From: Polytrichum commune | Taxonomy: Eukaryota; Streptophyta; Polytrichopsida; Polytrichales; Polytrichaceae | DNA: 64,000 bases | Assembly (NCBI GenBank): GCA_950295325.1 | Contig: OX485803.1 | Span: 44,467,554 to 44,531,553, forward strand | Direction: 5' to 3' | In this document: positions 2,071-61,971 of the stretch, piece by piece | Numbering within the stretch: the stretch's first letter is position 1 | Layout of the letters: every line of letters starts with the position of its first letter | Program-made: the position numbers and the translations under genes | Notes under the pieces: generated by a model | Told to the model about the DNA's origin: nothing | Database searches by the model: none | The model's input: only the letters and a program-made list of their open reading frames with translations

Positions 2071-4245
2071 CTTTCAATTCATCCAAATGCCAGTTATTCA
2101 AACAAAGTTTGGTGGTACGATTTGCATCCTAACAAATTTGTGATGAATTATTGTCGTGGATGATTGAAATTTGGATGAACAATCACTTAGTAAGTGACAA
2201 TACTTGCAACACTATAAATCTATAACATCAAATTTTTTTACAAGGAATGACAAATACTGTTAGGTTAGCATTTAGTGTTGGTGACACAACGCCGCAATTT
2301 ATAATTAGTATTGAGCAAAACAACTAGAATTGGTGACACTAAATATCATATTTAGTGTAGCTGATAAAATTTGAAAACGTAGTCCAATCTCTTTAAAGCA
2401 TGTGTCTTTACAGTGTTCGTTCTCTGATACTCACCTAACCACACTCGAATCAAATATAGGTATCCAATTAAGAAAAGTAACCAAATAACACCCGCATACC
2501 TTAAATGTTCAAGACTCTAGCAACCCACCCACCCCACACTCATGCATTCATCAATGGCGGAGGGGGGAACACAATTGTAGCAATTGACCGCACCCTAAAT
2601 TATCGCTTAATGGTTTATAATTCCACAGTATTTTAAAAATCTCCTAATCTCCTAACTGTGATAATCTCTTCGATCCGGCACAATTTCCATGGGACATTTT
2701 GGGAAAAAAAATCCAGGCAATCAAGCATTGCAACTTCAGACAAACCCTAATCCATTTGGGACTCTTTTCATTTTCTTTGTTGAGTGACAATGAGTAACAA
2801 TTAGTAGTATGGCATCAGGTAGCTGTGGACAAGGATCCTAAAGTGTATAGTATTCTGCAACTAAACAACTAAAGGTCCAGCCACACATCCCGGTTAAGGC
2901 TCCAGTTAGAGTAAGTAACCACTCAAACTAAGGTTAAGGCATCTATAACTGATATCATAATAGAGTTTGCATATTTTTAGGAGTAATAATAGGGAATTAT
3001 TTTTCTTGCGAAGAGAAACAAACTCTAAGGAGATGCCAAGAACAATCTAATTTGTTTTATGAATATGAAAATTGTTACAAATTTCAAAGCGGTAAAGTTA
3101 GGGTACCACATATTTGATTTATAAAATGATCCATAAGCACTCATCTAGATTCTAATGCTTGGCTACGATAATTGTCAAAATTCTTATGAGGGTAATCAAT
3201 CACAAGCTGCCATCACATAAACCTTGACTATGTTCGCCTAAAAATTATAAATCTCATCCATATCGGGATAACATGACCCTAGTGAGTGGTTAAATGGACC
3301 TAATCGACTATGGATGCCTCAACCTTAGTTATATTATGCTCGCACTACCCAGTTAAGAGAGTTAGCTAACATATGAAGTAGCTAACCTATGTGAGAGAAA
3401 TAATCTATTTCAAGAGCCTAGTTAACTCATCCATAACCCTCATGCTAAGTAACTATTACAAATGAATAGCCCAAGTTTTTGTCTTGAATGCCCACCTTCA
3501 TTTCCCCAATCTCTTCTTTGTTATGCTACGAGGTGGATCACACTATTTCTTATATTTTCCTAAATTACCATTTTAAAACCATAAGATAATATTTTAATGA
3601 TAAAATGGTATTAATGTCATTTTATGCCCAATTTCATTTTAAAAAAAGTTGTAGGTATCATATTTGATTCTATTATAATCATAATAAAATGCAATTAGTG
3701 TGGCTTACAAAATTATAATGTATCATAATTAGTGTCATGTTCAAAATTTAGGCAAGTTGAGCAAAACTTTGGTCGGTCAATCTTAACTCCTCTCTTCAAT
3801 TGGTCAACCTTTGGTTAGTGGTAATTGAGATGTGCGGCCATGTAATCAATTAGCTCGCATATGAGTTACCATATAGGGATCCCCATTTCATCTTTACATG
3901 TGCCTAGAGTAGTTTCCACATGGGATACAAGTGGGTCATGGAAAATGTGAGCATGACACATGGCAAATTTTGAGGGGAGAATATCTATTTTTTATGGGAA
4001 TGAAGAGCCCTCGATTGATTCACTAACATTGCTAGCTAATTCTCCTAGCTAGGTGGTGCAACCATGAATTTAGTTAGCTAGAATTTTGGTTAGCTAACCC
4101 TCACTAACTCGTAAGTTATCTAATGCTCTTAACTAAGTGGTGCGGTTGGACCCTAACTTACTCATTACACACCTTAACAATTGCAAGTGTGCACTCGATT
4201 GTACTGCCATTGACCAAATGCATTAGAGACATAATGAGCTTAGAA
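2071..4245. other. non-coding, no feature recognised
   Basis: AT-rich DNA with frequent stops in all frames. The only notable piece is the palindrome around 2334-2358 (ACACTAAATAT facing its own complement), which recurs at other places in the window. Confidence 0.5.
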
Positions 4246-4500
4246 CGGGGAAAACCAACGACTAGTTCCATATGAATTGGTTGAGTTTGAGAATTAATTG
4301 GTTGAGGTTCAAGACAACAAGAAATCTACTAGTCATTTTAGGGGAATCTATAGAATATACCTCACATTAATATAAAGAAATTGAAAGATCATACCATGTA
4401 CAATAATCTCCTGCTTAAGTATGCACTTTGAACCGGAGCCGTTGGTGCGCACTTAGTTGGTAGGTGCTTACTTTACTCATATGGCTTTCTAGACCCTCTG

Positions 4501-4839
4501 ATTCAACTAACTCACAATGAGAAACGGGTGAAACTTGAGGCAACCCACTTCACCGAAGCCCAATTGTGTGAAATCATTGCAAAGTTGAGCAAGCCGAACG
4601 CGCTAAGCAAGTAGGCGCTATGGCGGGAGTATGAAGTTAGTGAAGGTGCCATCCAGAAAGTCTCAATCGGGAGAACATACTACAACAAAATCCAACCTAT
4701 CAAGGCATTTGTTGAATTTAAAAGTGCTACTGACTTCAAAGGCTTTGAAGCTCTACACAACATTGTCCTTGACATCGATAACCAATTGCTTTGCTCCGAT
4801 GGTCAAATGAAAGTTGGAGAGATGCATGATGAACTGTGA
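4501..4839 (+). pseudogene. pogo/CENP-B-like transposase, N-terminal HTH remnant
   Basis: Read in frame from about 4501 to a TGA at 4837-4839, with one internal TAG near 4612, the segment encodes a motif of the style THFTEAQLCEIIAKL, SKPNALSK, stop, ALWREYEVSEGAIQKV. This resembles the N-terminal DNA-binding helix-turn-helix of plant pogo/Tigger-like (CENP-B-related) transposases, where 'SK..LA..Y.VSE.AIR.V' is typical. In those proteins this part recognises the element's ends. It sits about 100 bp inside a pogo-type left end, which supports the assignment. Downstream translation shows no catalytic domain, so the gene is truncated and non-functional. The assignment is from motif memory only. 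Confidence 0.5.
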
Positions 4840-5154
4840 CATTGTTTGAGACGTTTCAATGAAACGTTAACAAATTGACATTTAATCTCAAGCAGAAGAA
4901 ATTCATGCATTCGCGGCAAATGACTTTGCATGCCATCTTCAAACGATAAAGTATTAACCCTACTTTTTGTCCAAAAATTTGTGCACTTAACCAGTGTGGG
5001 AGTCCAAATTCGACGGAAATACGGAAATACGGATTCATTTTCCGTATTCTACCCTGCTTATATGAGGATAATAGGGTCTCTTAGGATAAATTGATTGTAC
5101 TAGGAAATAAGGCATTCTAAACCCGCCTTGCGCGATAAAAAGGATAAAAAGTGG
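4840..5154. other. AT-rich spacer inside the pogo-like element
   Basis: This piece lies between the transposase remnant and the GC-rich block. No gene or structure was recognised. Base composition changes sharply at its right edge. Confidence 0.4.
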
Positions 5155-5369
5155 TATTATGACCGGTCCGTCAAATTGGATTAGGGGACCGTTTAATCAT
5201 GGTCCGAACCGCTGGTCCGGATCAAGTAACGGTCGCGCCAAGATTAACCAACGGTCCGGAAGTGGCGGTTACAACGGGTTTATGACGGTTGGGGGAAAAC
5301 CGTCGGAAAACGGTTGGCAACCGTTTTCCGTTAAACCCTAACGGTAACAATGGAAGGAAGAGGGGGAGG

Positions 5370-5380
5370 ATATTTAAGGG
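5370..5380 (+). promoter_or_regulatory. possible TATA box of the GC-rich unit
   Basis: GATATTTAAGG lies about 210 bp before the first ATG of the broken frame at 5582, between a purine-rich tract and a pyrimidine-rich leader. Position and sequence fit a plant TATA box, but nothing else supports it. Confidence 0.25.
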
Positions 5381-5581
5381 TTTCTTCCTTCTCCTCCCCA
5401 CTTTTTGCAAGGAGAAAAAAATTGTTGAGTGAAAGAGTGGTGAGGCTGTGTTTGCTTTTCGAGCCGCCAGCAGTTGGATTGCTGGGACTCCATAATTTCC
5501 AGTCACCGGCGGTTGGCTTGCCGGGACTCCGTAGCAGTTGAGCGGAAGAGAGGGAACCCGGAGAGGAGAGAGTTTCCGTAA

Positions 5582-7651
5582 TTGAGACGGAAGTTGAGAA
5601 AAGAGAGGAAGATGCCGGAAACACGGGAAGAAGATCAGAGGGAACCCATCCCGATTCCGCTCAAAGCTCTCGTCCCTGCAATCCCAAAGGAGGACAGAGA
5701 ATTGCAGGAGCTAGCGGAGGATCTCCGGGTTATGGGCTGTTCGGGATTGCTTGCCAAACCCTGGAACCTCCGAGCGGAAAACACCCTCCGAGAGTTCAAG
5801 TTTGAGAGAGGTAATCAGTGATTAGGGACCAAGAGGAGGGATCCGGATAATTGGACTCCGGATGTGTGGAATAGGGTCTACGGGTTCCCGAGGGGAATTG
5901 CAGAGGGGTGGGCCGGCCGCCGCGATGGCCTATTCGCCGGAAAATTTAGAGGGGACGCGGACCCGAAGGACGGATTCCACCCCAGGAATTGCCGGAACAT
6001 TAGGGAACGGAGGGTGTTAGAGTTCTTCCTGCCCATCCTCAATCCGGACAAACCGAAGCGGATTAGCCTTACCATGGCTAACACCCTGTTCGGTGCTATG
6101 TCCGGAGTCCGGCCAGTGAACTGGGGTCTAATAATTCAAGAGATAGTAGGGCGGGCCCTCCCCCATATAGGCCGGAAACCCTCCTTCCTCTCCCCCTTCA
6201 TTCTGCACCTCTATCAGCACTTCGACTGTTTCACGGCCAAGGAGGAGGACCTGCTGACGATAGCGGCGGACGAGGTCACCTACAAGCTCCATCCGGAAGT
6301 TGGGGACTTCGAGACGGAGACTTCCAGCGACCTCGTCATTCCGGAAGCACCTCCCTCGTCACCCGGAAGCCCGCCGCCCACCATCTCGAGGCCACTCTCT
6401 CCTCCTCATCATCATCATCCGGAACCCGGGAGACCACTTGGCGGAATGTGGATCTCTCCGTTTGGGACTTTCCGGAAAATCCCTTCAAGCGGGTCCAGGA
6501 GGGGATGGAGGATCTGCAGAACCAGTACTACCGGCTGGAGCACATCGTCCGAGGAGCGAACCAGGCCCTGGACGACTGCGGACCCGGAAATATTCTCCGG
6601 GAGTTGGCCAAGAGGGCGGATAGGAAGGAGCTCGAGCAGGCCAAGACGGAGAATGCTCACCTCACCGCACAGGTAGCGGCCATGAATCAGGAGCTGAGTC
6701 AGAAGAGCGAAGAGATCCGGAAGTACCACGCGGAGTAGGCAGTGCTCTTTAGCCGGATCCGGGAGCTGGTGGGGCATCTGGCAAAGATCGTCAACAAGGC
6801 GCATCTCTACGACCGGATGATGGAGTCCGGAGAACTCGCTTCCGCCAGGCAGACCCTTCCCATTCTCGTGAAGTACTCACGGACGACGAAGGATCTCCTG
6901 GCGGAAATCCAGAAGATGGTTCCTCCAAGCGGAACACCCCGGCGGGTACTCTATCCGGGTCCGCCTGGGTCACCAACCGGAACCCTCTACGACGTAGTTG
7001 GTGAAGTCGCCCTGGTTCAGAACCCGCCAACGTCTGCAGGACCCAGCTAGCAGGGAGGCGGCTCTCGGCCTGCTAGTTCCGGGAGAGCTCCGGAAGGGGT
7101 CCGTTCTCCCCAGGTGAGGAGAAAGAGTACCGGGTCTGTCAGATCCGGACGAGGCCAGTCCCCTGTCCCGCGGACCTCGGACCTCGGATCGGTCCCGGAC
7201 TCCAGACAGGGCTAGGATGCCGATAAGGCACCAGACTTCGGATCGGGAGGCAACTCCGAGTAGGGGTAAGGCCCCTATGGCCCAAGCCTCGCCGTCGTCT
7301 CCTCCGGACTGCCAAATGGTTAGCCCATTCCCTCTGCCACCCTCAAGGACGGCCTCCAACAGGGATCCGCGGACTGCCTCGATCTCGGGCGGGCAGAATC
7401 CGGAACAGCGTACCGGAAGCGATCCTTCTCCGGTCCGGAGCATCCGGAAGGGGAGTACAGTTTCCGGAACCCCAGGGACCGGAACACCGCGGACCGAAGG
7501 AGCAGCGGACTCGGAGGATGAGATTGCCCCGTCTTCGAACATGAGGAGGATGCTCACGCGGCTACAGAGGAGGCTCATCCGCCATCAGTGGACTCGGCAG
7601 CCATTCGAAGGAGGGATCGGCTCAGAAGAAGCACCGCTCTTCTTAGCTTAG
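5582..7651 (+). pseudogene. broken 'plant mobile/transposon protein'-like ORF with coiled coil
   Basis: One long frame of about 690 codons is interrupted by a TGA (5819-5821), a frameshift around 6400 in a CAT repeat, a TAG at 6736, a TAG at 7048 and a further frame change near 7200. The N-terminal part reads ELAEDLRVMGCSGLL. The middle has TMANTLFGAMSGVRPVNWG, then a stretch running from FLSPFILHLYQHF to LTIAADEV; this layout resembles the 'putative plant transposon protein' domain common in plant retroelement-derived ORFs. Then come a His/Pro/Ser linker, a Glu/Gln/Leu-rich probable coiled coil (about 6450-6735), a second helical part and a Pro/Ser/Arg/Gly-rich tail ending at the TAG at 7649. 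No catalytic domain was recognised, so function is unknown. The TAG and TGA codons could each come from CAG or CGA by one C-to-T change. The product is not expected to be functional. Confidence 0.5.
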
Positions 7652-8089
7652 AATGGTAGCTAGATTAGTTAGGCAGAATAGAGGTAGGAAGGTAGGACTT
7701 AGGAGTTTTTGAAGATGAGGAATAAAATTCTCCCTTGGGTGTATTAGCGGAAAATCTGGATCTTGATCCAGGAAATCCGGGAGAACGGGTGCAGTTAGGG
7801 TTTTCCTTAGGGGCGGCCGCCTGGGCCGCCGCCCTCAGGTTAGGGATTTTGGGCCTCTACTTAAGGCTAAATAAGGAGTTGGGAAAGGGTTCTTTCTTCA
7901 TTGTTGTATTTTGATTGCTCCTACTCTAATAAATTCCTTGATTTCTCACTCCTTGACTTTCCTTGATTGATGATTGTATGAATGATCCGGAGATCGTTAG
8001 CGGAGGAGAGAGAGCATGAGGGATAGGAGTTCCGGATAGGACATGGGAGAGGAGACCCGGATCCGATCTGGTTATTGCCTTGTAGATCC

Positions 8090-8600
8090 TCTTTGTGTGT
8101 AGTGGGAGGGAAACCTCACTGATCCGGATGGTTGAGTAACGTCTAGGTGGAATAGCCGCTGGGAGGATTGGGTGAGATCCGGAAGGGATCCGGCCTTACG
8201 CCAATCTGATCTTCTGAAGAGGTCCCACCGCCCTTAGACGGATCAATCCGGAAAGTGGTACGGATCGCCTAGTTATCTCAGATTGAGTAGAATCCAAGGT
8301 AGAGGTAGCCGGACTGATCCGTCGGAAGGAGAAGAGAAGGACCGGAACAGTTAAGGTTCCGGGGTGGAGGCCATCTCCGGAGTGTAGTGGGAAGGGAACC
8401 TCATTGTTCCGGAGGTCTGGGTAACGTCTAGGTGAGATAGCCGTGGGGAAGATTGGGCAAAGGACCGGAAGGGATCCAGACTTGTGCCAATCTGATCTTC
8501 CGAAGAGGTCTCAGCGCCGGTGGACGGGACAATCCGGAAAGTGGTACGGGTCACCCACTTATCCCGTCGAGTCAGATCTCCGGTTGGAATCCGGACTCCT
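8090..8600 (+). repeat. two diverged tandem copies, about 280-bp spacing
   Basis: The segment beginning TGTAGTGGGAGGGAAACCTC near 8097 recurs as TGTAGTGGGAAGGGAACCTC near 8381. Later landmarks follow in the same order in both: GTAACGTCTAGGTG, ATAGCCG, CCGGAAGGGATCC, CCAATCTGATCTTC, GAAGAGGTC, AATCCGGAAAGTGGTACGG. The copies have diverged clearly, so the duplication is old. They lie downstream of the broken frame, in its likely untranslated 3' part. Confidence 0.8.
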
Positions 8601-9147
8601 CTGGTCATTGTGGTCCTAAGAAATAATCCGGATCTCTCTGTGTGACCTGCCAAGACGGATCTGATCAATCCGGATTGATTGTGAGGGAGTTTCTGGATTC
8701 CAATCTTATAAAGGATGGCTTCACCGGAAGAAACCACCTATTCTAGAGGGTAGACGTAGAGGGGGGAGTAAACATTATAATTAGGACTTAGAGATACAAT
8801 CCGGAAAGGCACACTCCGGAAGAAGACGAAGAGTGTCCCAAAGACCAAAAGTCCGGAAATCAGGGTTTCCGGAAATTTGGCTAAGGAAGAGAAGATAAGC
8901 AAGTACGGAGCGTTCTAGACCTCCTACACTTCACAGAATCCCTGGACGATACTAGGGTCATCCGGACAAAACCGGATTAGGCACTTAAAAACCCCAATCC
9001 GGATATGTTGGTGTTCGTGTGTTCCCACAACCAGGATGTGTAATCAAATGGGTGCGTACTTAAGCGGGAGATTACTGTAACCAGTTGGACTTGGAACCAC
9101 TAGGATCTCAACCAATTACATATGCCCAAAATCCTCCCCGGGCACTG

Positions 9148-18500: not shown

Positions 18501-21465
18501 AAATTGCAATCCTGTGTTTGGTAGGCATTTCGGATCTGATGGAGTAGTTTGATGTGTCAACTGCACAAATATGGAATCATTGTTGATATATATATGGATA
18601 TCTAGAGGGTTGTGATGAGTTCGTTCTTCCTTCAGGAACTTTGTTTTTTCTGGCACTGTCTTTAAGCCAACTGTGTAGTAAGTGCTTGCTCTGATCATTG
18701 GGTTGTTGTGGCACAGCCTTTTTTTCTTCGTAACATACTTATGAAGTGACCAGCATTTAGTGTTGAGATACTGTTGATACATAACCTTCAAGACTTAATT
18801 ATAGGGTTTATAATAACTTCCTTAACGTCAACTCAACATTTAGCTAATGATTCATTCAACATTGAGGCAATTCACAAACTCGAGCTTTTAGGTGTTGCAA
18901 CTATAACATTATAGAAGCACAAGATGAAAATTGCAACTCCATGTTTGCTAGGCATTAGAGTTATCTTTAATTCAATCGGAGTTTTGGTAGGGAGTTGGTT
19001 GATACATAACCTTCAAGACTTAATTATAGGGTTTATAATAACTTCCTTAACGTCAACTCAACATTTAGCTAATGATTCATTCAACATTGAGGCAATTCAC
19101 AAACTCGAGCTTTTAGGTGTTGCAACTATAACATTATAGAAGCACAAGATGAAAATTGCAACTCCATGTTTGCTAGGCATTAGAGTTATCTTTAATTCAA
19201 TCGGAGTTTTGGTAGGGAGTTGGTTGTATTGCATACAATACTTTTCATGATTGGTAAGTTTTCAGTGCATATTTGGAGTTATATCAGTTCATTGAGGGTC
19301 AAACTCGTTTCGGCATGGCGAGAGGTGCTCAAATGAGTTTGGTCCCCAATGAAGCGATGTAGAATGTTCTTCATTCAAACCTCCAAACTGATTTAAAACA
19401 TGTACCAAAAACCTTACTAGACACAGAAAATCTTTGTATGCAAAGCAACCAACTCCCTACCAAAACTTTGGTTGAATCCAAAGATAACTCTATTGATTTG
19501 ATGTTGCAATTTGATGTCAGCAGTGTACAATCAGTGTTGATATATGAATTTTGTGATGTACTCAGGGTTGAGCGCAAGTCATGGGGAAGTTTGGTGATGG
19601 GGATTCGTGATGACATGCTGGAAGTGTGTCGGCAAGCCAAGCACGTATTTCAAATCCGGACATTCCAGATATTAGTACTGCAAGGTTTTCCTGGAAGCAT
19701 GCCACGTAAGACGCTGGCATTTATGCCGATGTGGCTGGAGCTTATTGGCTACTCACACAAGGTAACTGCAGTTCTAACGGCCCTATTTGTGGCTGGAAAT
19801 ATTTTCGGGAGCGTTTTTGGAGGCCGAGCGGGTGACGTTCTCTCGCTGCGGTTCGCAAATACGGGACGGATCATGCTTGCACAGTCAAGCCAAGTGTTTG
19901 GCTTGATGTTTGCACTTGTTTTGTTTGTGTTTTTACAGGACAGCCCAAATGTGGAGATTGTGTTTGGAGGTGTTCTTTTCCTCTTTGGATTTATGACATG
20001 CTGGGAGGCTCCCGGCACAAATAAGTGAGCACTCTTCATTTCCATCCAATGCTGTTCTTTCCCTTCAAAACTCCTCCTATTTTAATTGTGCTGACAGATT
20101 ACCAGTCTGTCCTGAAATGTAATTTCCACGTAGGATTCATTAGACATTGACCAGTGATGGTCTGGTATGAAGGTGAATGCACGGTATCAATAATCAATAA
20201 TAATTACATCAAAGAACCTACTTGTGTGTATCAAATTTGTAATACTACTCAAAGATTGATAGTTGATGAGTATCTCAAGGTGAGAGGATCTATGTATATC
20301 TGAGTTATTATTTGGGTCAATACAATTGTAAACCATATTATTATTACGACAATTTTATTTATGTATGAAGGTTTTGGATGGTATATGAACCCAAATGGTT
20401 TTGGGAACAAAAATACCATCAAACACCTATACCCTACATACTTATAATGTGAAAATCCTCATTATAGATACACTCTAACATCCCTAATATCACCTTTGTA
20501 GTAACCAAAGTGCACGTGATATCAAGTAGATTTGCAGTGTTAACATGGATGCGTGATAATAAAGAATTAGTGTAGCATGTGACATTATGAAATTACATGA
20601 AGTCAACATTGCAATTATGACAATAATTACACTAATGACAATGTGATGCATGTGCATGTGTGATTTGAAATTTTTGGTGGATTATGATAGTGTCAAAATT
20701 TGTGATATATGGGAGAGGAATGTGACAACAAGGAGGGAAATTTAGTTGAGCACATTTGTCTCCTAGGGTTTTGGAATATAAGAAAAGGAGTGACATTACA
20801 GAGGTTAGGGTGTACCCAAATGCCATAAAAAAATAGAGGATACCAGTCCAACACTGGTACTGACCAATGTGAGTATGAAATGTGTCAATTAATTGGTTCC
20901 TAAAGAATGTTTAAGTTGCTTCAAACCAGATAGCACCATACAATGAAACAGGTCAACAGAAAATCTGACTGATAGTTTTCTTTTGTGTTGCAGCCCTATA
21001 TTTGCAGAAATCGTCCCGGAGAAATCACGCACAAGTATATTTGCACTCGACCGCTTCTGCGAGTCTTTCTCTTCCTCTTTTGCAAGCCCCCTCGTGGGAG
21101 TCCTTGCCCAGAAATTATATGGTTTCAACTTCACCTCTACAGGTACTGGCAATCAGGTTGTTGATGACCAGAATGCTGTTTCGCTGGCAAAGGCAATGTA
21201 TGTCATGTATACCATCCCAATGGTAATTTCCTTTTCTATTTACGCATCACTTTATTCGACGTACCCTAGAGATCGTGATGAAGCTCTAAACACTTCGAAA
21301 CTCAAAAGCTATAGTCCTCTCACTGGACCACATCTACAGCTTGAAGTCATAAGCAATGACAGTAGTGCATTAATAATGGCAAGTTCGGATGTGACTGATG
21401 ACTCTGATCCCGCATTTGAGGTTTTACAACATACAACAAACCACATGTCAAAGTGCCCTAGTTAA
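15505..21465 (+). CDS. major facilitator superfamily transporter, four exons
   Basis: Exons 15505-15828, 17181-17491, 19566-20024 and 20994-21465 join in frame (phases 0, 2, 2) to about 521 codons ending in TAA. All introns have GT..AG borders. The product matches the plant MFS family that includes Arabidopsis At1g78130 (UNE2): exon 1 has ADEALLPGVYREI and LAAYAAVHHNRVSVISLGAL (motif A-like loop), exon 2 has RALNGLGLALAFPAIQSLVA, exon 3 has MPMWLELIGYSHK and GGRAGDVLSLRFANTGRI, exon 4 opens with NPIFAEIVPEKSRTSIFALD. It should be an integral membrane protein with about 12 helices; the substrate is unknown. An in-frame ATG at 15520 is an alternative start. No internal stop or frameshift is present, so it is probably functional. 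Residue-level resemblance is from memory. Confidence 0.87.
15825..16350 (+). repeat. minisatellite of about 60-bp units in MFS intron 1
   Basis: About seven or eight degenerate units follow the pattern AATAGGTGTAA, TCCAGTCCCAACTCTC, TTGCATCTTCTGTGTAC, TAAGTTTTTCTG. The unit starts are visible near 16078, 16138, 16198, 16258 and 16316. The earliest unit overlaps the real exon 1 donor (GCAGGTATAAAAATC). Most units carry a TAGGT(A/G) string that could act as a cryptic 5' splice site, followed by a pyrimidine-rich tract. Confidence 0.8.
15829..17180 (+). other. MFS intron 1 (1352 bp)
   Basis: Donor CAG|GTATAA and acceptor AATCAG|ATAG. The first 500 bp are a degenerate tandem array that appears to include the donor site itself. 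A 20-bp inverted repeat (ACCAACTTGAAATGGTCACC near 16472 with its complement near 16537) and copies of the intron-specific unit described for 16600-19230 follow. No exon-like frame was recognised in it. Confidence 0.75.
16600..19226 (+). repeat. dispersed about 200-bp unit in MFS introns 1 and 2
   Basis: Diverged copies begin near 16608, 16850, 17960, 18340, 18774 and 18999. They share GTTGATACATA(C/A)CCTT, GGGTTTAA, CAACATTTAGCTAATGATTC, TAGGTCTTGCAACTATAA and ATGTTTG(A/G)TAGGCATT. A partial match near 41930 lies outside the gene. The unit has no coding capacity. It flanks exon 2 on both sides. Confidence 0.7.
18774..19223 (+). repeat. perfect 225-bp tandem duplication in MFS intron 2
   Basis: Copy 1 (18774-18998) and copy 2 (18999-19223) read identically by eye, each running from TTGATACATAACC to GGTAGGGAGTTGG. 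The tail of the unit also occurs inverted at about 19448-19492. Perfect identity inside otherwise heavily decayed repeats means either a very recent duplication or an assembly artefact. Confidence 0.9.
20150..20858. mobile_element. TIR element, family D copy 1, in MFS intron 3
   Basis: The left end ACCAGTGATGGTCTGGTAT and the right end (reverse strand) ACCAGTGTTGGACTGGTAT are inverted repeats. The body aligns with 32550-32921: ATCAAAGAACCTAC, GTATCAAA, AATAC(C)ATCAAA(C/T)ACC and CAGTCCAACACTGGT occur in the same order. It is interrupted by the MITE at 20471-20812, which the 32.6-kb relative lacks. No coding potential; target duplication not resolved. Confidence 0.6.
20469..20814. mobile_element. 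TA-flanked MITE, copy 2, nested in family D
   Basis: Same family as 12988-13349 in the opposite orientation. Ends are CACTCTAACATCCCTAATAT and, on the reverse strand, CACCCTAACCTCTGTAATG, with TA at 20469-20470 and 20813-20814. It lies inside the family D element, within intron 3 of the transporter gene, so it inserted after that element. Confidence 0.75.
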
Positions 21466-60578: not shown

Positions 60579-61971
60579 ATGGAGGAGAGGAGGAGGACAT
60601 TTGTTTTGCTTTTAGGATTGTACATGTTTTTGTACATGCTCGTAAAGCATGTGGTAGACATTCAAGCGCTGATTTTGCAAGGAGAATGGGAGAAGTTAGC
60701 AATTTTGAGCTTGGTTTATGAGAATATGGGGTATAGAGAGAAGAGTATATGGAGTCAAGAACGGATGATTGGATTCGTAGACCGCTTATTGTTGGGTTCG
60801 TGGATGCAGAATGAATTTAGAAAGCGAACTCGAGTGACACACAATACATTCAGATTTTTGTGTGAGAGGTTAGGTCCGTATTTGAAGAAAAAAAAATACT
60901 CAATTTAGGGTTACGGTGCCAGTGCAAGATAGGATAGCAATGTCATTGCATCGGTTGGGAAGTGGTGATGGATTGCAAACTATAGGCGACTTGTATGGAG
61001 TGCACAAAAGTACATTATCAATAGTAATGAGGGAGATTTGTAGAGCGGTTAGAAACCATCTACAACCGGTTTTTGTACAAACTCCGAGCGAATCACAGTT
61101 TAGAGTTTTAGCTTCGAGGTTTGAAAATTTATACGGCATTCCTTATATCATAGGTGCAATAGATGGATCACATATTCATGTTTTAGCCCCTCTAATTGGC
61201 GGATAAGATTATTATTACAGAAAATCATTTCATTCAGCAATTCTGCAAAAAATTGTCTGACCAGATTGTATGTTTTGGAATTATGAGTTCGGGTGGGCAA
61301 GAAGTCTTCACGACTGGAGCGTATTTCAAGTTACAAGAATCGGACGTGGATGTATAGAAGGTAAATTTCAGCTGTACAAACTTATAGGAGATGTGGCATA
61401 TCCGGTTCGGCCATGGACATATTATCCGTTTAAGGGTGGAAAGACAACACTATCCGGGAAGGAGGCTAATTGGAATTTCATTCATTCTTCAACTAGGATG
61501 TGTGTAGAGAGGGCATTTGGGATATTGAAGGGTAGGTGGAGGGTGATAATGAAGCGATGCGAAGTGTCTTTGCGGAATATGCCGGATATTGTAGTCACTT
61601 GTATAGTGTTGCACAATTTGTGTATTGTGAACAAGGAAGGTATAAAAGAAGATTGGATAGTGAAGGCAGAAAATAAATTGAGTAGAAGAATTGGTGAGGG
61701 AGAAATAGGAGAAGGTAGTGAATTACGGGGCAAAAGGGTTGGAATTGTTGAAGTAAAGAGGAGGATGTTAGCCACCGAAGATGCTCCAATTGCAAATGAA
61801 GTAAATGATGAAGAAACAAAAAAAAATTTATTAAAAGAAAACAAGAAGGCAAATAACCTTATGCGGGAAGTCATAGTAATGTACGAATTAATGGCAGAAA
61901 GTTTGTGGCAATACAAACCAAGGCAGAAATCAACTATAATAGACAGTGATAGTGATAGTAAAATTGAGTAG
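60579..61971 (+). pseudogene. PIF/Harbinger transposase (DDE), disrupted
   Basis: Three adjacent pieces make up one protein of about 460 residues. Piece one (60579-60908) starts MEERRRTFVLLL and ends in a poly-A run (KKKKYSI), where a frameshift follows. Piece two (60916-61206) has VPVQDRIAMSLHRLGSGDGL-like text with an HTH (IGDLYGVHKSTLS) and the first catalytic Asp in IIGAIDGSHIHV; it ends at a TAA (61204). A TGA follows at 61258. Piece three (61270-61971) has the second Asp in SLHDWSVFQ and the Glu in VERAFGILKGRW, so the D..D..E triad is complete. The fold is the HARBI1-type nuclease, which cuts and joins DNA at TWA targets. One frameshift and two stops disable it. The acidic, Ser/Asp-rich C-terminus is intact. 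Confidence 0.92.

Follow-up and report, generated by a model that had tools for sequence, protein, structure and literature searches.

How does a stretch of GC-rich DNA come to lie inside a small transposon whose two ends are still in place? This question is raised by a 64,000-nucleotide stretch of Polytrichum commune (assembly GCA_950295325.1, contig OX485803.1, positions 44,467,554 to 44,531,553 of the forward strand), here called the window, in which a pogo-like element extends from 4401 to 9077. The initial annotation, made from the sequence alone, offered two explanations for the interior of this element and its gene-like unit, namely captured cargo or a second insertion. We favour ordinary nesting, with a probability of about 0.92: a solo long terminal repeat (LTR) of the Ty3/gypsy superfamily lies inside a short pogo-like element, and the unit with the open reading frame (ORF) is part of that LTR.

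The outer element has retained the features by which it was recognized. Its ends, CA(A/G)TAATCTCC(T/C)GCTTAAGTA, are found at 4401 and 9077 with TA beside each, they are the only pogo-like ends in the window at up to four mismatches, and the inverted arms (4399-4426 and 9052-9079, 28 nt) are 89% complementary. By its sequence features, it is a short non-autonomous, TA-flanked transposon, i.e. a miniature inverted-repeat transposable element (MITE), for which the label pogo-like is taken from the TA and the end structure. The TA duplication, the terminal inverted repeats and the occurrence in many short copies are shared with pogo-like and other Tc1/mariner MITEs; unlike in these groups, no DDE domain was recognized in the element, and an autonomous partner with matching ends was not identified. 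In a search of the genome with DDE_1 (best 150 of 984 candidates scored), none of the three loci fetched had a matching pair of pogo-like ends, one of them (L104) having a single weak end-like match.

Without its insert, the outer element measures 637 bp in the window. Searching the genome with its left end gave 40 significant matches including the window's own (best 40 of 663 candidate places scored), and the three relatives fetched measure 615, 597 and 633 bp and have TA on both sides in every case, with a fourth of 661 bp adjoining the first. The GC-rich block would fit into none of the four, and the three fetched relatives (597-633 bp) thus did not include a pogo-like copy with the same interior, of the kind that the initial annotation had suggested looking for. 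The left 594 bp contain a broken frame that was read as the N-terminus of a transposase, the only part remaining; this reading is weak, since the frame is common to the three fetched relatives but a 73-amino-acid piece of it has no Pfam match at E 0.1. When 4401-9077 is removed, the joined flanks match 58568-58355 (75% over 218 bp) and 14503-14301 (74.5% over 208 bp) across the junction. The flanks thus align unbroken with two other places in the window, and the outer element therefore inserted into an older repeat, as proposed for the relatives at 58.2 and 14.3 kb; the third proposed relative, at 38.1 kb, was not found in the window at E 1e-8.

The foreign DNA inside this element amounts to 4035 bp (4995-9029) plus a 5-bp duplication. 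GC content along the window rises from about 0.40 outside the element to 0.46-0.65 inside it, and the block itself has 54.5% GC as against 37-38% in the flanks, which agrees with the GC-rich interior initially described. The block begins with TG, ends with CA and is bordered on both sides by ACCAG. It is an insertion separate from the outer element, and of the two explanations first offered the second insertion is the one borne out.

The genomic copies of the block point the same way. A genome search with window positions 5000-9000 (best 40 of 707 candidates scored) gave 46 matches including the window's own, and the 20 copies ranked next after it were inspected. In all 20, similarity to the window starts at 4992-5017, and in 18 it stops at 9029-9035; it stops at 9017 in copy 15, and in copy 10 the match is cut at position 3826. 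With up to three mismatches, the 5' end motif is present in 20/20 copies and the 3' motif in 19/20, that of copy 10 being probably spurious, and among the 19 copies with both motifs a 5-bp duplication is perfect in 15, correct in 4 of 5 positions in three and absent in copy 10. Neither the left flanks (about 900 bp) nor the right flanks (about 570 bp) fetched for the 20 copies contain a pogo-like end at up to four mismatches. It would be extremely improbable, in our estimate, that a pogo-like element took up the GC-rich DNA and carries it along: the block is indeed framed by terminal inverted repeats that are well preserved and have a TA duplication, but it has its own 5-bp duplication in the window, the flanks fetched around its inspected copies are devoid of pogo-like ends, a result that the initial annotation had named as refuting capture, and the three fetched relatives of the outer element leave no room for it.

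Genome-wide, the end motifs occur as 251 block starts and 342 block ends, as compared with 2 and 0 for the reversed-pattern controls. Pairing of starts and ends on the same strand and no more than 25 kb apart, which covered 100 of the 251 starts and 78 of the 342 ends (ends up to C4:28.2 Mb), gave at least 49 pairs, among which 31 measure 4036-4174 bp and five fall into a second size class of 5051-5120 bp (5.05-5.12 kb).

What kind of insertion this is can be read from the places where the block continues into further DNA. Ty3/gypsy elements have TG...CA ends, a 5-bp target duplication and the order reverse transcriptase, RNase H, integrase. A sequence pattern in which the block end passes into a primer-binding site, CG(T/A)TTTTGG(C/T)GCCGCTGCCG, occurs at six places in the genome (up to three mismatches; reversed control 0), and a shorter version of it at five. 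Gag-like DNA, recognized by Pfam or by DNA similarity, follows the binding site in five of the six, and at the sixth (C1:46.38 Mb) the likeness stops after about 117 bp. When a binding site of the tRNA-Met type was sought behind the block end, the genome gave no match, and a loose TGG pattern had 21, which by eye have no common continuation. Downstream of these junctions, Pfam recognizes Retrotrans_gag in L064 (1.5e-9), zf-CCHC (6.6e-9) and RVT_1 (1.1e-20) in L069, and RNase H (4.1e-36) and the integrase domain rve (1.5e-10) in L091. The best-preserved element, at C4:5.39 Mb, has gag, then zinc knuckles, reverse transcriptase, RNase H and integrase; reverse transcriptase and RNase H thus precede integrase in the relatives, and gag-pol is absent from the window copy.

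Furthermore, a start-start pair (C1:69813006/69820014) led to a complete element at C1:69813006-69821348, which consists of ATTGT, an LTR, the binding site, gag-pol, a second LTR and again ATTGT. Its gag-pol is colinear with that of the C4:5.39-Mb element (83-88%), its two LTRs have one deletion in common and are 92-98% alike in pieces, and GGAAGTGGGGTAA, a polypurine-tract candidate, stands directly before the second LTR of this one element. Two other searches for such structures ended in solo copies: C3:55237961/55229699, considered as a complete element, is two adjoining solo copies with the duplications TTCCC and TCGCT, and a purine-run pattern for 3' LTRs gave six matches, two of which were followed up and are solo copies as well (duplications GGGAG and GGGGA). 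The window copy has a single LTR with a duplication on both sides, no binding site and no internal part, and is therefore a solo LTR.

These junctions also bear on a different reading, in which the unit of 4 kb would be a DNA transposon that has short inverted ends (TGTGGGA...TCCCACA), makes a 5-bp duplication and encodes a transposase of some unrecognized kind. As such a transposon would have it, almost every inspected copy is solitary and has a 5-bp duplication, and the single ORF is conserved; however, six copies continue into a common primer-binding site and five into gag, the ORF has no transposase domain recognized by Pfam, and a complete element bounded by two block ends in direct orientation refutes the plain form of this idea, with the shared ends then requiring a coincidence of capture. 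We consider it very improbable.

Under the nesting that we prefer, a short non-autonomous pogo-like transposon with TA as its target (637 bp) first entered the older repeat, and a Ty3/gypsy retrotransposon with LTRs of roughly 4 kb then integrated into it with duplication of ACCAG. The first insertion follows from the ends, the TA and the alignment across the empty site. The block is an LTR; its present solo state would be the outcome of recombination between the two LTRs, in which the internal gag-pol part was lost. The gene-like unit, which does exist as initially described but belongs to the LTR, is the ORF of the LTR itself, with a TATA-like box, a leader, about 683 codons and AATAAA.

The ORF is a remnant in the window and better preserved elsewhere. 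It comprises 683 codons without a stop in L089 and L090 and is open for 673 codons in L088, where two TAG counted in the match are placed at an early frame end, and for 675 in L076. When the L089 protein was compared with the genome (best 65 of 1391 candidates scored), 43 of the 65 matches had no stop. Two stop-free matches sit in LTRs that run into gag: L089 itself, whose LTR belongs to the C4:5.39-Mb element and is followed there by the binding site, gag and pol, and C4:57308954-57311023, in an LTR running into binding site and gag at C4:57.31 Mb.

The substitutions in these copies have the pattern of a protein-coding sequence under constraint. Among four near-intact copies, the ratio of nonsynonymous to synonymous divergence (Ka/Ks) reaches 0.19 in the closest pair, and the remaining five pairs lie at 0.079-0.103, with Ks of about 0.37-0.46 in five of the six pairs. 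Taken over 24 copies (276 pairs), the ratio has a median of 0.14 (5-95%: 0.09-0.25), as compared with 1.35 and 2.14 when the same alignment is read in the two shifted frames, and differences per codon position are 0.067, 0.039 and 0.181; codons with gaps or stops were skipped in the Ka/Ks calculations, and L062 was left out because of an insertion of 0.94 kb. Judged from these sequence comparisons, the ORF is likely held by purifying selection in the wider family, so that an accessory protein of the retrotransposon is very probably its product. The possibility that it is a fragment captured from a host gene and serves no function in the element, which would account for its GC-richness, unlike the rest of the region, and for the insertion of an ORF-less LTR variant with its gag-pol, is hard to reconcile with Ka/Ks values of 0.08-0.10 at the above Ks in five of six pairs, which point to long-lasting selection, and we regard it as improbable.

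The TATA-like box lies 226-241 bases upstream of the ORF start in all five LTR copies examined, and the first ATG after it is the ORF start in three (window, L006 and L008), with one ATG in between in L007 and L062; a further AATAAA follows in the window at 7928-7933. With a TATA-like box before the ORF and AATAAA after it, the LTR resembles a gene cassette, and it is plausible that this cassette is expressed. By eye, about the first 240 residues of the protein appear globular, and behind them come a stretch rich in proline, a coiled-coil part and a basic tail rich in Ser, Arg and Pro; AlphaFold gave a mean predicted local distance difference test score of 43.5 for a window fragment. A role in nucleic-acid binding or in countering silencing is a tentative guess. 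A likeness to PF20167, suspected by eye, was not listed by Pfam at E 1, and a profile comparison with a genome protein that has a sub-threshold PF20167 match gave a probability of 0.2%.

Several observations weigh against the nested LTR with its own selected gene. The 20 inspected block copies are the best matches and not a random sample. The LTR protein has no known domain, its Pfam and solved-structure searches returning weak matches, mostly to the coiled-coil region. No complete element with two ORF-bearing LTRs was found in the stretches searched, and four further 10-kb stretches downstream of binding-site loci held no 3' LTR, just one old inverted copy. Both LTRs of the complete element at C1:69813006-69821348 are without block positions 157-2869 and have thereby lost the ORF, and one of them is also without one tandem unit. 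The ORF-less element with its gag-pol has nevertheless inserted, so that the ORF is dispensable in cis for insertion or can be supplied in trans. Finally, the Ka/Ks values of gag with which those of the ORF were compared, 0.22-0.46 for six pairs of four elements, come from a 5' part of about 177 codons and include decayed copies, so that this comparison is indicative only.

The abundance of solo copies allows a further alternative, namely that most of them arose from direct integration of single-LTR DNA rather than from recombination after insertion. There are just six binding-site junctions as compared with 342 block ends, and many ORF-bearing copies, whether solo or not, are stop-free, 96-98% alike in protein and young-looking. 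Against this, the junction and end counts had unequal mismatch limits, decayed elements and all 3' LTRs escape the junction count, and long LTRs are expected to recombine often; PMC7251063 cites a correlation of the solo ratio with LTR length. We hold direct integration as the main source to be unlikely. If the LTR is a complete gene for a selected protein of the retrotransposon, hundreds of solo LTRs could stay expressible and act in trans after the loss of gag-pol. In its boldest form, with the single-LTR unit as the main integrating product and integrase provided by rare complete elements, this idea is also unlikely.

Within the superfamily, the lineage is suggested by the binding site alone: TGGCGCCGCTGCCGGGG resembles the tRNA-Asp type of Athila/Tat, and it differs from the site of Del, which is of the tRNA-Met type. 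An ORF in the LTR is not known as a feature of Athila/Tat. The superantigen gene of mouse mammary tumour virus lies in the LTR and thus at both ends, an arrangement like the present one in an unrelated host and with an unrelated protein. Among the papers found, this virus is the chief case of a gene inside an LTR, and LTR ORFs of plants may still be reported elsewhere; for the plant element Coe1, a transposase gene enclosed by two putative LTRs is reported. Like the block, Del elements of the Ty3/gypsy superfamily have long LTRs, which reach 4831 bp and often contain CpG islands according to PMC4029996; unlike in Del, much of the GC-rich LTR described here is a conserved ORF, a term that occurs 0 times in that paper.

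The coordinates of the features are collected in Table 1.

Table 1. Features of the nested insertion, in window coordinates.
Feature	Position	Strand	Basis
TA target duplication, left	4399..4400	.	sequence, inverted-arm and end-motif analysis
Terminal inverted repeat, left, pogo-like element	4401..4426	+	inverted-arm analysis
Pogo-like element, left part; broken frame common to three fetched relatives	4401..4994	+	end motifs, comparison with relatives
5-bp target duplication ACCAG (inner element), left copy	4990..4994	.	junction comparison
Solo LTR, Ty3/gypsy, 4035 bp, TGTGGGAGTCC...GTGTTCCCACA	4995..9029	+	ends, duplication, genome copies, primer-binding-site junctions
TATA-like TATTTAAG; in 5/5 LTR copies examined	5371..5378	+	copy comparison
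LTR ORF remnant; 3 in-frame stops, 3 frameshifting gaps	5612..7646	+	protein comparison; start and stop read from sequence
AATAAA shortly 3' of the ORF; GAGGAATAAAATTCT common to 4/5 LTR copies examined	7721..7726	+	copy comparison
Diverged tandem duplication in 3' part of LTR, 8097-8277 and 8382-8563, 81% identical	8097..8563	+	
5-bp target duplication ACCAG, right copy	9030..9034	.	junction comparison
Pogo-like element, right end; terminal inverted repeat 9052-9077	9035..9077	+	end motifs, inverted arms
TA target duplication, right	9078..9079	.	sequence, inverted-arm analysis

Some further variants of the LTR were encountered. L062 (C2:58644400-58649600), the copy of the 5.05-5.12-kb size class that was examined, has about 0.94 kb of extra DNA in the ORF region, perhaps an intron or else an insertion that was propagated. 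Versions of 11.1-11.2 kb are found at C1:53298897-53309985, where an insertion of about 7 kb lies at block position 1565-1569, and at C3:55927820-55916614; both have in common a 2.5-kb stretch, within which repeats of about 228 bp occur, and their middle parts have no likeness to the block. At C5:18663303-18671486, one LTR copy has apparently inserted into another in the opposite orientation, about 6 bp of the target being counted twice. In L091 (C4:5378000-5387700), the integrase part of the C4 element is followed by a second gypsy-like element in antisense, and in L064 (C3:55910600-55916600) gag is broken by long antisense frames that by eye resemble a MULE/SWIM-type transposase. Elsewhere in the window, ORFs of 233 amino acids (61270-61971) and 196 amino acids (19438-20028) resemble, by eye, a fragment of a PIF/Harbinger-type transposase and part of a membrane transporter, respectively.

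The nesting itself is routine, and the notable part is a Ty3/gypsy family whose LTR holds a long ORF that appears to be selected. If this is true, solo LTRs, which are usually seen as gene-free scars with a promoter at most, can last as complete gene units. A gene resident in the LTR and, in these comparisons, at least as constrained as gag would bear on the ways in which retrotransposons counter silencing. ORFs resident in LTRs would likewise bear on the mis-annotation of such sequences as host genes and on the question why some families keep very long LTRs.

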